64,000 nucleotides of DNA from NCBI GenBank assembly GCA_020073665.1, contig JAIQEU010000015.1, positions 157,771 to 221,770 of the forward strand, written 5' to 3'. The notes beneath the pieces were generated by a model, which worked only from the letters and a program-made list of their open reading frames with translations, was not told the DNA's origin and made no database searches. Every line of letters starts with the position of its first letter. Positions within the stretch are counted from its first letter, which is position 1. Position numbers and translations under genes: made by a program. This DNA comes from Terriglobia bacterium. Lineage in GTDB: Bacteria; Acidobacteriota; Terriglobia; Terriglobales; Acidobacteriaceae. This document shows, piece after piece, positions 29,102 through 33,602 of the stretch.

Positions 29102-29914
29102 ATGTTCGTAGATTCCCACGCCCATCTCGATGGCAAGCAGTTCGCAAGTGATCGCGAGCAGGTGATTGCACGGGCGCGCGAGGCCGGAGTCGAGACTATC
29201 GTCGCCATCGGGAACGGTGATGGACCTGCGCACGTCAATTGCGGAATTCAACTCGCCGAGAAGTACGATTTCATGTATGCCACGCTCGGCGTGCATCCGC
29301 ACGAAGCCAAGCTTCCGACCGACGATGACTTTGAGCGCATGGCAGAACTGGCCAAGCATTCCAAAGTCATTGCCTGGGGCGAAATCGGACTTGATTATTT
29401 CTACGATCACTCGCCGCGAGAAGTGCAGAAGCAGGTCTTCACCCGGCAAATGGAGCTGGCGCAGGCTGCGAAGTTGCCTATCGTGATTCACTGCCGTCCA
29501 TCCGACAACAGCGAAGACGCCTGGGATGACTGTCTCGGCCTGATCAGTGAGCGGTGGGCACCGAGTGCCCTGGGTGGCATCCTGCATTGCTTTACGGGGA
29601 CGTGGGCGCATGCCAAGCGCGCTCTGGATATGGGGTTCATGATTTCGTTCGCCGGCAATGTGACTTATCCCAAGGCGCAGGCGATTCGCGACGCGGCCAA
29701 GGCAGTCCCGCTCGACCGGATGCTGATTGAAACCGATTCGCCGTACCTGGCGCCGGTGCCACATCGCGGCAAGCGCAATGAACCGGCGTTCGTGAAGGAA
29801 ACCGCGCGGCAAGTGGGTGAGTTGCGCGAGCTGTCAGCAGAAGAAGTGGGCCTCCAAACCACCAAAAACTTTTACCGTTTCTTTTCCCTTCACGAAAAGC
29901 TCAACACCATTTAG
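29102..29914 (+). CDS. tatD: TatD family metal-dependent DNase
   Basis: A 270-residue TIM-barrel hydrolase. The conserved start MFVDSHAHLDG carries the first metal ligands (His6, His8). GVHPHEAK, then AWGEIGLDYFYDHSPREVQK supplies the bridging glutamate, and PIVIHCR and HCFTGTWAHA supply the further histidines. IETDSPYLAP supplies the last aspartate. TatD proteins are 3'-5' exonucleases and AP-endonuclease-like enzymes of DNA repair; the second name YcfH is used for close relatives. It follows metG in the usual order. Confidence 0.93.
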   Translation: MFVDSHAHLDGKQFASDREQVIARAREAGVETIVAIGNGDGPAHVNCGIQLAEKYDFMYATLGVHPHEAKLPTDDDFERMAELAKHSKVIAWGEIGLDYFYDHSPREVQKQVFTRQMELAQAAKLPIVIHCRPSDNSEDAWDDCLGLISERWAPSALGGILHCFTGTWAHAKRALDMGFMISFAGNVTYPKAQAIRDAAKAVPLDRMLIETDSPYLAPVPHRGKRNEPAFVKETARQVGELRELSAEEVGLQTTKNFYRFFSLHEKLNTI

Positions 29915-29971
29915 CTTGTTAGGTGCATCTTCCGTGGGGAACAGCTAATCTATTCAAGTAGCGTACACACC

Positions 29972-30469
29972 ATGCCAGAGAACACTTTTGACATCGTGAG
30001 TAAGATCGATCTGCAGGAAGTCTCCAACGCCATGCAACAGGCGTTGAAGGAAGTCCACACCCGCTTCGACTTGAAAGACGCCAAGGCGAACATCGAACTC
30101 GAAGGCAAGGATGCCATTGTTCTGCATGCCATCGACGAGTACAAACTGAAGGCGGTGAACGACGTTTTCCAGCAAAAGCTGGTGAAACGCGGGGTGTCGC
30201 TGAAAGGCTTGACCTACGCCGCGATAGAGCCCGCCGCAGGGGGCACAGCCAAGCAGCGCATCACTATGCAGCAGGGGATCGCGATCGAGAAAGCCCGCGA
30301 AATCGTGAAGCTGATCAAGAACTCCAAGAAGAAAGTGCAGGCCTCGATTCAGGGAGACCTGGTGCGGGTCAGCGGGAAAGATCGCGACTCGCTGCAGGAG
30401 ATCATCGCCCTGCTGCGGCAGCAGGATTTCGGGATCGACATGCAATTTACGAACTACCGGACGAACTAA
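29972..30469 (+). CDS. YajQ family nucleotide-binding protein
   Basis: A 165-residue cytoplasmic protein of the usual family length, beginning MPENTFDIVSKIDLQEVSNA. Two RNP-like alpha/beta domains are visible: FDLKDAKANIELEGKDAIVL, and the basic segment KLIKNSKKKVQASIQGDLVR, ending GIDMQFTNYR. YajQ-family proteins bind nucleic acid or c-di-GMP in the cases studied. Which ligand applies here cannot be read from the sequence. It lies between tatD and a prenyl synthase gene on the same strand. Confidence 0.92.
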   Translation: MPENTFDIVSKIDLQEVSNAMQQALKEVHTRFDLKDAKANIELEGKDAIVLHAIDEYKLKAVNDVFQQKLVKRGVSLKGLTYAAIEPAAGGTAKQRITMQQGIAIEKAREIVKLIKNSKKKVQASIQGDLVRVSGKDRDSLQEIIALLRQQDFGIDMQFTNYRTN

Positions 30470-30479
30470 GAAAGCAGAC

Positions 30480-31469
30480 TTGAGCACACCCGCTACCATC
30501 AACGGAAAAGAAGTCTTCGAGATGCTGCGCGACGATCTCGCCGCCATCGAGCGCGAGTTCGGGCGGGACACGGTCTCGGGGGTCGAGGCCATCACCGAGA
30601 TCGGTGAGTACCTGCGCGGGGGCGGTGGCAAGCGTATCCGTCCGGCACTATTGTTGCTCTCGGCCAAGCTGTTCAACTACCAGGGGCGCGGGGCCATCAA
30701 GCTGGGCGCGGTGGTCGAAATCATTCACACCGCCACGCTGGTGCACGACGACATCATTGACGAGGCCCGCACCCGGCGCGGCCGTCCCGCTGCCAACACC
30801 CAGTGGGGGAACTCCAAGTGCGTGCTGGCCGGTGACTGGCTCTACATGCAGGCGTTCAAGGTGGCAGTGCAGGAGCGCAACTTCCGCATCCTGGACACCT
30901 TGATCGAACTGACGCAGCAGATGGTCGAAGGCGAACTGCTGCAGATGGAAAAACTGGGCCAGCTGATCTCGCTGGATGAGCACTTCGACTTGATTTTCCG
31001 CAAGACCGCCTGCCTGTTCTCGGTGTGTATGCGCATGGGCGGCATCCTGGGCGGCGCTACCCCAGAGCAGGAAGAGAGCCTGGCGCAGTACGGGCGCGAC
31101 CTCGGCATGGCTTTCCAGATTGTTGACGACGTGCTCGATCTGACCGCCTCGGAGAGCGTGCTGGGAAAGCCGGTGGCCAGCGACCTGCGCGAAGGCAAAG
31201 TCACCATGGCAGTGATTCATACCCTGGAGCGCTGCCAGCCGGCCGAGCGCAAGTTGATTGAGACCGTGATGCGGGAGCAGTCCTTCGACGGCGTGAGCCA
31301 CGCGGAGATTCTTGAAATCCTGACCCGCTACGGTTCGCTGGACGCGGCCAATGCCCGGGCCATGCAGTATGCCACCCTCGCCAGGAACGCGATCTGCCGT
31401 TTCCCCGACAGCGAAATCAAGCGAGCGCTGCTATGGGCGCCGGAGTTTGTGGTAGCGCGGGAAAAGTAG
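30480..31469 (+). CDS. polyprenyl diphosphate synthase
   Basis: A trans-isoprenyl diphosphate synthase of 329 residues that builds a long prenyl chain, most likely for the quinone side chain. The first aspartate-rich motif is LVHDDIIDEARTRRGRPAAN (Asp90, Asp91, Asp94) and the second is FQIVDDVLDLT (Asp216, Asp217, Asp220). GGGKRIRPALLLL supplies the diphosphate-binding Lys/Arg. I use the TTG at 30480, 10 bases after the previous stop; the ATG at 30522 is a possible alternative. Chain length cannot be set from the residues visible. Confidence 0.93.
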   Translation: MSTPATINGKEVFEMLRDDLAAIEREFGRDTVSGVEAITEIGEYLRGGGGKRIRPALLLLSAKLFNYQGRGAIKLGAVVEIIHTATLVHDDIIDEARTRRGRPAANTQWGNSKCVLAGDWLYMQAFKVAVQERNFRILDTLIELTQQMVEGELLQMEKLGQLISLDEHFDLIFRKTACLFSVCMRMGGILGGATPEQEESLAQYGRDLGMAFQIVDDVLDLTASESVLGKPVASDLREGKVTMAVIHTLERCQPAERKLIETVMREQSFDGVSHAEILEILTRYGSLDAANARAMQYATLARNAICRFPDSEIKRALLWAPEFVVAREK

Positions 31470-31485
31470 CTACCAGCTCCTAGCT
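31465..31485. repeat. period-7 repeat at convergent gene ends
   Basis: Three units ending in AGCT (agtagct accagct cctagct). The stop codon of the prenyl synthase gene lies inside the first unit, and the last unit reaches the stop of the convergent RidA-family gene. Confidence 0.5.
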
Positions 31486-31880
31486 TATCTTTTCACTGCA
31501 ATCCCCATCATTTCGAACCGGGCACCCTTCAGCAAGGGTCCTGAGCCCAGGAATGCCCGCGCCGGAAACTCCTTGGCAAAGCGTCTCACGTAGGCCGCGT
31601 TGAATCTCTCCCACAGCGATACGTCCGGTGCGAACACCTGCACCGAGACGAGATCGTCCATAGTCATGTTCGCTTGTGCGAGTACGGCTTCGACGCCATC
31701 GAACAACGCGCGTAATTCTTCATCCACGTCGGCGGGAGCTACACCAGTCGCGTAATCGAGCCCGATGCGCCCGGCAAGATAGAGAGTATCGCCGACCAGC
31801 ACGGCATCGCTGAACGGCAGTGACGTACTCCGTCCAGGCAGGTTGATGTAGCGGCGGGTTGAGCTTTGATTGGGAGACAT
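31485..31880 (-). CDS. RidA family protein
   Basis: A 131-residue protein of the YjgF/YER057c/RidA family. The family trimer has the pattern LYLAGRIGLDYATG near residue 35, the linker helix ALFDGVEAVLAQANMTMDDL and VRRFAKEFPARAFLGSGPL near the end. Classical RidA deaminates reactive enamine/imine intermediates using an Arg in the 'RxxVxV' position. Here the C-terminal part reads PARAFLGSGPLLKGARFEM, so that position is not clearly the arginine, and it may belong to a RidA subgroup with a different substrate. Confidence 0.85.
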   Translation of the reverse strand: MSPNQSSTRRYINLPGRSTSLPFSDAVLVGDTLYLAGRIGLDYATGVAPADVDEELRALFDGVEAVLAQANMTMDDLVSVQVFAPDVSLWERFNAAYVRRFAKEFPARAFLGSGPLLKGARFEMMGIAVKR

Positions 31881-31906
31881 AGGTTTCAGGCCTTGAAGGG
31901 TAGATG

Positions 31907-31982
31907 GCTGATTTCAGGCTGCAGATTCAGAATCATGCCAAAGATTACGAATCGAATGTGCAAATCTGAAATCTAAGTCTTG
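31907..31982. repeat. period-7 inverted repeat upstream of the DedA gene
   Basis: Left part 31907-31934 (gctgatt tcaggct gcagatt cagaatc) and right part 31961-31981 (caaatct gaaatct aagtctt) each have a 7-base period and share inverted GATTTCAG/CTGAAATC. The 24-32 bases between them are AT-rich. The element lies in the divergent gap between the RidA-family and DedA-rhodanese genes. Confidence 0.4.
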
Positions 31983-32045
31983 AAAGTGAAAAGCTCCCGC
32001 ACTGGACTGCGGCAGCGATCCCAGTTAGCCTAGCGAAACTGATCT

Positions 32046-33017
32046 ATGAACGAATTTCTTTCCCTCATCATGCATCACGGATACCTTCTGATCTTCGCGG
32101 TGGTCCTCGCGGAAGCGATCGGACTGCCGGTACCGGCCGCCCTCGCGCTGGTGGCTGGGGGAGCGGCAGCGGGCTCCGGCATTCTGCGCACCCCCGCCGT
32201 GCTGGGACTGTCACTGCTGGCCATGATGCTGGGCGATTCGATGCTGTATGTGCTCGGACGCTATATGGGCTGGACGCTGCTGGGAATACTCTGCAAGGTG
32301 TCAGCCAATCCGGAGACTTGCATCCTGCGCTCCGCGGAATCTTTCTACAAGCGCGGCAAACTCACACTGGTGGTCGCCAAATTCATCCCCGGCGTGAACA
32401 CCATGGCCCCGCCGCTCGCAGGCAGCATGAGGATGCGCCCTGAGCAGTTTCTGCGACTCGACCTGGCCGGGGCGACGCTCTACACCTCCGCCTACTTCGC
32501 TCTGGGCTACCTGTTCCGCGATTTCCTGGCTACGATCACGCGTGGATTCCAGGCGGCAGGCCGCGCCGTGGAGATAACTTCGCTGGTGGCGCTGGCCGTC
32601 TACATCGGCTACCGCGTCTGGTTGTATCGCAAACATTCGGTGTATCGCATCGTCCCCAAGGTGCAAGTGGAGGAACTGGCGCTCAAACTGGCTTCCGAGG
32701 AGCAGGGGCGGATCCTGCTGGCCGATGTCCGCAGTCATGGCTACTACAACGCGGACAGCGCCCGTATCCGGGGCTCGGTGCGTATCGAGCCGAACAACCT
32801 GGAGGAAGAACTCAAGACCCTGCCCAAGGAGAAGGACATCTATCTGTACTGCTCTTGACAGCGCGAAGCGACCAGCGCCCGGGTGGCGCACTTGCTGCGG
32901 GAAAAAGGATTCAATGCGTTCGTGATTGTGGGCGGGCTGGCAGCCTGGCGGAAAGCGGGTCAACCGCTGGAGCCAGTACCACACGATGATCTGGTGAAGC
33001 TGCCGACGTTTTCCTAG
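32046..33017 (+). CDS. DedA membrane protein fused to rhodanese domain, probable selenoprotein
   Basis: Residues 1-200 are a DedA/SNARE-associated membrane domain: hydrophobic segments beginning LSLIMHHGYLLIFAVVLAEA and the family motif KFIPGVNTMAPPLAG. From about 208 a cytoplasmic rhodanese-like domain follows (ILLADVRSHGYYNADSARIR), reaching the active-site loop as IYLYCS. The next codon is TGA (32856-32858, position 271). The same frame then continues without a stop as QREATSARVAHLLREKG, then VGGLAAWRKAG, to TAG at 33015-33017, giving 323 residues. The downstream codons keep the GC-rich third positions of a coding frame. In related proteins I recall a Cys-Thr-Cys-Pro-Asn-Glu-Ala loop, so the TGA replaces the second Cys. 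With the hairpin right after the TGA I infer selenocysteine. Read as a plain stop, the product would be a 270-residue protein lacking half its rhodanese domain. Confidence 0.72.
32859..32897 (+). promoter_or_regulatory. bacterial-SECIS-like hairpin after TGA
   Basis: The hairpin begins at the base after the TGA. The lower stem CAGC (32859-32862) plus AAG (32866-32868) pairs with CTTGCTG (32891-32897), leaving a GCG bulge. The upper stem GCGCC (32875-32879) pairs with GGCGC (32885-32889) around the loop CGGGT (32880-32884). The apical loop starts 21 bases after the TGA and has a G at its second position, as the known bacterial SECIS model asks. The pairing was found by eye and not folded by program. 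Confidence 0.55.
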
Positions 33018-33034
33018 TCGTTGGTCGTTGGTTT
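33015..33034. repeat. period-7 repeat before the CYTH gene
   Basis: agtcgtt ggtcgtt ggttt begins within the stop codon of the DedA-rhodanese gene and ends 2 bases before the CYTH ATG at 33036. It fills the whole gap between the two genes and leaves no room for a Shine-Dalgarno. Confidence 0.55.
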
Positions 33035-33035
33035 C

Positions 33036-33602
33036 ATGGTCAATAAAGAAATCGAGATTAAGTTTCGGGTCGAGGATCTGCGCGCACTCACTCGCGCACT
33101 GCGTGCGGCGGGATTCCGCCTGGTTACGCGTCGTACTCATGAGATGAATACGCTCTACGACCTTCCCGGCCAGCGCCTGCGCAAGCGCGGCGAACTGCTG
33201 CGGCTGCGCAAGTACGGGTCAGAGTGGGTGCTGACACACAAAGGGAAGGGCAAAGCCGGCCGCCACAAGACTCGCGTGGAGTTCCAAACCTCGGTTGCGG
33301 ATGGCGCCAAGATGGACTCGATCCTGCGCGCCCTCGGGTTCAGCCCAACATTCCGCTACGAAAAATTTCGCGCCGAGTGGAGCGACGGCAAGGGCCACGT
33401 CGTCGTTGATGAGACTCCCATCGGCAACCTGGGCGAGATTGAGGGGCCGTCCCGTTGGATTGATCAGATCGCGAGGCGGCTGGGGATTGCCCGCGCGGAT
33501 TACATCACGCAGAGTTATGCCGAGCTGTTTTTCGAGTGGAAGCGACGGACCGGAAGCCCGGCGAAGGACATGACCTTTGCAGCAATCCGGCGTCATCGCT
33601 AA
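33036..33602 (+). CDS. CYTH domain protein (class IV adenylate cyclase / triphosphatase-like)
   Basis: A 188-residue protein starting MVNKEIEIKFRV, whose ExExK motif (Glu5, Glu7, Lys9) is the signature of CYTH triphosphate-tunnel enzymes. Further tunnel residues follow: RLRKRGELLRLRKYG and LTHKGKGKAGRHKTRVE, then the acidic strand VVVDETPIGNLGEIEG. Family members are CyaB-type adenylate cyclases, thiamine triphosphatases and tripolyphosphatases; the sequence alone does not say which. The ATG at 33036 fits the conserved N-terminus better than an in-frame TTG at 33021. Confidence 0.9.
   Translation: MVNKEIEIKFRVEDLRALTRALRAAGFRLVTRRTHEMNTLYDLPGQRLRKRGELLRLRKYGSEWVLTHKGKGKAGRHKTRVEFQTSVADGAKMDSILRALGFSPTFRYEKFRAEWSDGKGHVVVDETPIGNLGEIEGPSRWIDQIARRLGIARADYITQSYAELFFEWKRRTGSPAKDMTFAAIRRHR

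Follow-up and report, generated by a model that had tools for sequence, protein, structure and literature searches.

Does the TGA codon lying in frame within a DedA-rhodanese gene end the protein, or is it translated? The question is raised by a locus at 32046..33017 (forward strand) of the window, i.e. the whole stretch of 64,000 nucleotides from a Terriglobia bacterium that was analysed here. Our answer is that this TGA (codon 271) is very likely read as selenocysteine (Sec), inserted at a predicted bacterial SECIS, because Cys and TGA share the column in related genes, sel genes occur in the genome, SelA co-occurs with the TGA form, a downstream hairpin is conserved and selection has acted past the TGA. 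A sequence-only reading of the locus had predicted Sec at this codon, and the sel genes, the Cys/TGA column, the hairpin and the open frame support that prediction.

The gene begins with ATG at 32046, ends with a TAG stop at 33015-33017 and contains a single in-frame TGA (32856-32858); read through this codon, it encodes 323 residues. Frame reading and Pfam searches agreed with the earlier description of a DedA domain and a rhodanese domain interrupted by TGA and continued by an open frame up to the TAG. The VTT/DedA membrane domain (PF09335; residues 29-155, 32130..32510, forward strand) scored 44.2 bits, above the gathering score of 33.9, and the rhodanese domain spanning the TGA (PF00581; residues 219-303, 32700..32954, forward strand) scored 44 bits, above the gathering score of 22.2. 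The predicted Sec closes a C-x-U motif (Y-C-S-U, residues 268-271), the first residue of which is Cys269 (32850..32852, forward strand). It had been foreseen that conventional gene finding would truncate the product at residue 270, and this truncation is real, since the database entry for the window's product (P0002) has 270 residues with the VTT domain only. PADLOC gave no match, and a plasmid search returned 45 records, all below 60% identity (five listed at 28.9-35.3%).

Codon 271 and the sequence beyond it

Besides the window's own ORF, 119 homologous proteins were compared (best 120 of 5572). Residue 271 is Cys in 100 of them and Arg in one, and the sequences of the other 18 stop directly ahead of it, in ...YCT. 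All 101 homologues that reach the site have Cys269. The pattern C-[ST]-C-x-x-E-A-[ST]-S-A, given for related proteins by the sequence-only reading, was thus broadly right (Cys at this column in 100/119). At the DNA level, codon 271 was read in 129 loci (L023-L045, L053-L132 and L133-L158, the window's gene included, with duplicates between the collections), one of which is cut short. The 128 readable loci contain TGA (102), TGC (16) or TGT (10) and no other codon, so that the expectation of Cys or TGA at this column was confirmed, with the one Arg exception among the proteins. Where a stop codon stands at 271, it is always TGA, never TAA or TAG (102/102 loci). The TGA form is common to about a hundred related genomes, and its presence in 102 of the 128 readable loci (duplicates included) means that it is neither a chance event nor a single error. 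Terriglobia, Rokubacteria, NC10, Deltaproteobacteria and Pyrinomonadaceae are among the record titles of its carriers, as is one Nevskia record; since many of these records are metagenome bins, an individual name may be mistaken. That this one assembly contains a sequencing error, a misassembly or a pseudogene at the site is virtually ruled out by the occurrence of TGA at the same column in 86 distinct tree sequences from many assemblies; distribution and conservation likewise led us to reject a chance open frame.

Directly before the TGA, 88 of 101 TGA rows have the codon ACT, as against 2 of 33 Cys rows (duplicates kept); the window has TCT (32853-32855). This bias in the aligned genes suggests a context effect on UGA decoding.

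Were the TGA a real stop, the gene would encode a DedA protein of 270 residues that contains half of the rhodanese domain, and the part downstream would be a relic. The database agrees with such a reading insofar as P0002 and 18 listed relatives (best 120 of 5572) end at this very place. However, across pairs of 65 close TGA genes the mean protein identity is higher after the TGA (74.6% for residues 272-310) than before it (67.4% for residues 201-270, 65.3% for the VTT domain). The claim that selection has kept the part after the TGA was upheld by this identity and by the differences between the genes in residues 272-310, 58% of which fall at third positions. Furthermore, a disrupted downstream frame in close relatives had been named beforehand as the sign of a pseudogene; the frame is open in all 65 close full-length TGA genes, none of which has a further in-frame stop at 272-322. 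Together with the exclusive use of TGA among stop codons at 271 and the co-occurrence of SelA with the TGA form described below, these observations make a real stop extremely unlikely.

Sec and Cys forms appear to have replaced each other several times. A tree built by a quick method with no bootstrap, comprising 119 distinct proteins (86 with Sec and 33 with Cys), calls for 10 changes in the Sec/Cys label; strongly supported branches force at least six of these.

The candidate SECIS hairpin

A hairpin predicted to act as a bacterial SECIS lies at 32875..32889 (forward strand) and starts 16 nt after the TGA. Its stem of 5 bp pairs GCGCC (32875-32879) with GGCGC (32885-32889) and encloses a loop of 5 nt, CGGGT (32880-32884). 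According to the available part of PMC1088965, bacterial SECIS elements are hairpins just 3' of the TGA with a small apical loop that holds a G, and the hairpin at 32875-32889 shows these features in its position, its small loop and the G within it. Prediction of a SECIS had been proposed as a check, and a fitting hairpin is indeed both present and conserved in the TGA genes.

The hairpin was examined in an alignment of 79 distinct TGA sequences (87 rows), with controls in which the pairing partner was slid by 1-3 columns and with 500 shuffles. Standard pairs were found in 98.7% of the stem cells of the 79 sequences, compared with 21.3-72.2% with a slid partner. Changes on both sides that keep the pair occur in three cells (in L104, L090 and L113); stem breaks were seen in L096 and L097 (two pairs each) and in L113 (one pair). 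None of the 500 shuffles, a control that does not remove the relatedness among the sequences, reached the pairing value of the TGA genes or their count of both-side changes. RNAalifold applied to the TGA alignment returned the same stem unprompted. By contrast, only 64.2% of the stem cells pair in the Cys genes (33 sequences), no better than in shuffles. Covariation proper is thin because so little varies in the stem: two slid controls (0.052 and 0.068) exceed the covariation score of the hairpin (0.040), and two to three cells changed on both sides are seen with a slid partner as well.

In 67 close TGA genes, 131 columns with residues of four- or six-fold degeneracy were scored for synonymous variability. 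The five least variable columns are codons 278, 280, 277, 270 and 281; the hairpin contains 277, 278, 280 and 281, and 270 (ACT) immediately precedes the TGA. The one other hairpin codon, 279, belongs to the loop and takes 11th place in synonymous invariance. The case for a SECIS rests on this near-invariance at synonymous sites with TGA and on its loss with Cys. Taken on its own, the window's sequence folded no better than shuffled versions (60 nt, z 0.28), and the minimum-energy structure at 42 nt was another one; since folding of the window alone thus gives no support, the SECIS claim rests on the comparison between genes.

A looser TGA-hairpin pattern matched in 26 of 41 genomes searched, compared with three matches for the reversed control. 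Of the 31 pattern places listed, 21 fall in TGA-rhodanese matches and the other 10 look like chance. In the window's own genome, the pattern matched at the DedA-rhodanese gene only.

Selenocysteine machinery and the TGA form

From the outset, the Sec assignment had been tied to the presence of sel genes, and SelA, SelB, tRNA-Sec and SelD were all matched in the window's genome (5.42 Mb, 62 contigs, 100% complete). SelA scored 533 bits (cut-off 268) and SelB 383.5 bits (cut-off 242), and a tRNA-Sec with anticodon TCA reached 70.6 bits (gathering score 47). SelD, at 350 bits for both pieces together, has an in-frame TGA of its own (...AAG-U-ASK), which we take to be the place of the active-site Cys.

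The SelD TGA lies near the start of SelD at 1531-1533 of locus L017 (genome G000, contig C47), and the frame has an extra stretch between the two SelD pieces. The hairpin predicted after this TGA does not beat shuffles (z -0.85). Two further tRNA-Sec candidates above the Rfam gathering score were set aside, ARAGORN calling them tRNA-Ser and tRNA-Leu; the second of them (tRNA-Leu) is still a tRNA-Sec by Rfam (47.3 bits, gathering score 47).

The survey of SelA covered 398 genomes of the window's bacterial family, an even draw from a larger group; 183 of them have a match (E 1e-50 or better). A close form of the DedA-rhodanese was defined as a match of at least 53% identity, with the window's own genome included and matches listed down to E of about 1e-78. 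Among the matches listed, and with relatedness between genomes not corrected for, SelA is present in 98 of the 103 genomes that carry the close form with one TGA inside, a count that omits the fragment G397:C187, which ends at residue 247, short of the site. In 38 of these 103 genomes (L023-L034, L133-L158) the position of the TGA was read from the DNA, and it is always 271. The five close TGA-form genomes without SelA are G282 (95% complete) and G379, G334, G324 and G309 (75-82% complete). No SelA was found in the 41 genomes of a clade with 43-48% identity and no stop (among the matches listed), and the five loci read there (L162-L166) all have Cys codons. G072 and G115, two genomes in which the close form has no stop, carry TGC and likewise lack SelA. 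Overall, none of the 43 no-stop genomes among the matches listed has SelA, and the seven that were read all have Cys. Among more distant fusions, all four TGA carriers (G004, G007, G021 and G023) have SelA, as compared with one of seven Cys carriers (G019).

Leaky readthrough or a changed code might instead place Trp or some other standard amino acid at the TGA, and such decoding agrees with a frame that is open and conserved past the TGA. It is nevertheless very unlikely, given that Cys codons are the sole alternatives to TGA in the readable loci, that a complete gene set for the Sec machinery was matched and that the hairpin is conserved in TGA genes but not in Cys genes. Moreover, six of 12 close TGA genes (L023-L034) end their frame with TGA where protein similarity ends, so that TGA also serves as a stop in these relatives. 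Sec remains by far the preferred reading, and the predicted SelA/SelB/tRNA-Sec/SelD machinery would translate TGA 271 accordingly, guided by the conserved hairpin 16 nt downstream as a putative bacterial SECIS.

Possible function and known relatives

The product would be a 323-residue membrane-anchored enzyme with a rhodanese loop reading Cys-Ser-Sec. In the mechanism that we slightly favour, given Sec, Sec271 would take up sulfane sulfur as a selenenyl-persulfide and Cys269 would serve as resolving or partner thiol, in a cycle of sulfurtransfer or persulfide reduction at the membrane surface; the DedA domain may be the anchor, or a lipid- or ion-handling partner. We infer Sec incorporation, the catalytic role, the substrate and the link to the DedA domain.

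Given Sec, the protein could instead be a thiol/selenol oxidoreductase acting through a Cys269-Sec271 selenenylsulfide, not a sulfurtransferase, which we consider a real possibility on the less probable side. The invariance of Cys269 (101/101 site-covering homologues, best 120 of 5572) is in keeping with it, as are one fold match to an arsenate/antimonate reductase (2j6p) and C-x-U pairs in redox families, e.g. a thioredoxin-like protein and ferredoxin-thioredoxin reductase (PMC13188914, available part). However, the domain is a rhodanese by both profile and predicted fold, and many of the 50 solved chains listed as fold matches belong to enzymes that handle sulfur or persulfides, though for several no function is known. 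In the structural alignment, both domains of 6mxv place their loop Cys on column 271, and 6pfz places it on 269.

As to the DedA part, COG0586 undecaprenyl-phosphate flippases have two arginines in the second reentrant helix, Arg130 and Arg136 in YghB (PMC10127716, available part). A solo DedA of the window's genome (L173) has two arginines six residues apart where the window's protein has Lys and Asn (K112 and N118), so that the two-arginine signature of the flippase is absent here. On our reading, K112 and N118 would occupy the places of YghB Arg130 and Arg136, which are implicated in undecaprenyl-phosphate binding. Scores with the UptA models were 37.2 and 23.5 against cut-offs of 300 and 250.

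Rhodanese selenoproteins as such are known. A 2026 review distinguishes, in its available part, five forms, of which form 3 corresponds to NF041203 with the CxU motif (PMC13188914). This family, rhodanese_LYCAU or 'rhodanese-related (seleno)protein', has the same Sec in the C-x-U motif of the rhodanese domain and is the highest-scoring NCBIfam match of the DedA-rhodanese protein (81.6 bits, below the cut-off of 115); two distant TGA fusions scored 87.3 and 89.9 bits. Its profile has 126 positions, the length of a solo protein, whereas the rhodanese described here forms the C-terminal region of a DedA fusion of 323 residues. Forms 1, 2 and 4 also have a rhodanese with Sec, but with motifs UxxS or UxxG, not CxU (PMC13188914, PMC1088965, available parts). 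TsoB, a rhodanese/DsbD fusion-like protein (NF045694), is likewise named a rhodanese-fusion selenoprotein and differs in its motif UxxxxU with two Sec (PMC13188914, available part) and its 572 profile positions; NF045694 gave no match to the window's protein at E 1 and scored 22.8 against a cut-off of 805 with the relative P0003.

The fusion of DedA and rhodanese is also known, from PA1209 of P. aeruginosa (PMC12893004), which has the same domain order with DedA N-terminal and rhodanese C-terminal, and from COG0586 (PMC10127716). The available parts of these two sources mention no link to selenium, whereas residue 271 of the window's protein is predicted to be Sec; we assume PA1209 to be a Cys form. 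DedA, VTT, PF09335 and 'acidobact' do not occur in the available text of PMC13188914, and no report of a Sec-containing DedA-rhodanese was found in the open-licence literature as covered here (titles, openings of abstracts and available passages), including PMC9312934, PMC2398784, PMC1794560 and PMC12013277. The suggestion of a new selenoprotein therefore stands for the DedA fusion and its distribution and falls for the CxU rhodanese, selenoproteins of that type being already known (NF041203, PMC13188914).

Solo rhodaneses in relatives (L052 and L167-L169) have a TGA in frame (YCTU), followed by the same hairpin as in the DedA fusion; L167 and L168 score just below the cut-off of NF041203. At L170:492-1874 (G015), a Sodium/hydrogen exchanger domain is fused to a rhodanese with an in-frame TGA (FCAUPNEATSAR) and the same hairpin. 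Its best NCBIfam matches are potassium/proton antiporters, below cut-off, and when 120 genomes from the order were searched (E 1e-70), this fusion was found in G015, its own genome, only. A further solo rhodanese (L171:1474-1884, G028; YCWGHDU) has its TGA at a different place of the loop and lacks such a hairpin; it is possibly a separate selenoprotein or a pseudogene.

Frequent neighbours of the gene are a polyprenyl synthetase gene upstream (30480..31469, forward strand; PF00348), with a tblastn match in 49 of the 65 close TGA loci that have sufficient flanking sequence, and a CYTH-domain gene downstream (33036..33602, forward strand; PF01928), with a match in 41 of 64. The order TatD, YajQ, polyprenyl synthetase, (RidA), DedA-rhodanese, CYTH (29102-33602) is shared, completely or partially, by many relatives with the TGA form.

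The fusion of a C-x-Sec rhodanese, in which Sec insertion is very likely, with a DedA membrane domain is common in the window's bacterial family. More tentatively, and with clearly less confidence, these proteins may form part of a widespread family of membrane selenoenzymes. In such a family, a Sec-rhodanese module with its own SECIS in the coding sequence would have been transferred between DedA proteins, a solo form and, in one case, a protein of the K+/H+ antiporter type, and would link the selenium-based chemistry of sulfane sulfur with the transport of lipid carriers or ions. With the predicted enzyme, the bacterial selenoproteome gains a membrane-protein architecture; the gene also illustrates how such selenoproteins get missed, the database protein ending at the Sec codon with half of the rhodanese lost. 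The near-invariant synonymous codons offer a clean, testable SECIS, and the repeated changes between Sec and Cys, with the close tie between TGA and SelA, constitute a natural experiment on the role of Sec in the rhodanese loop.
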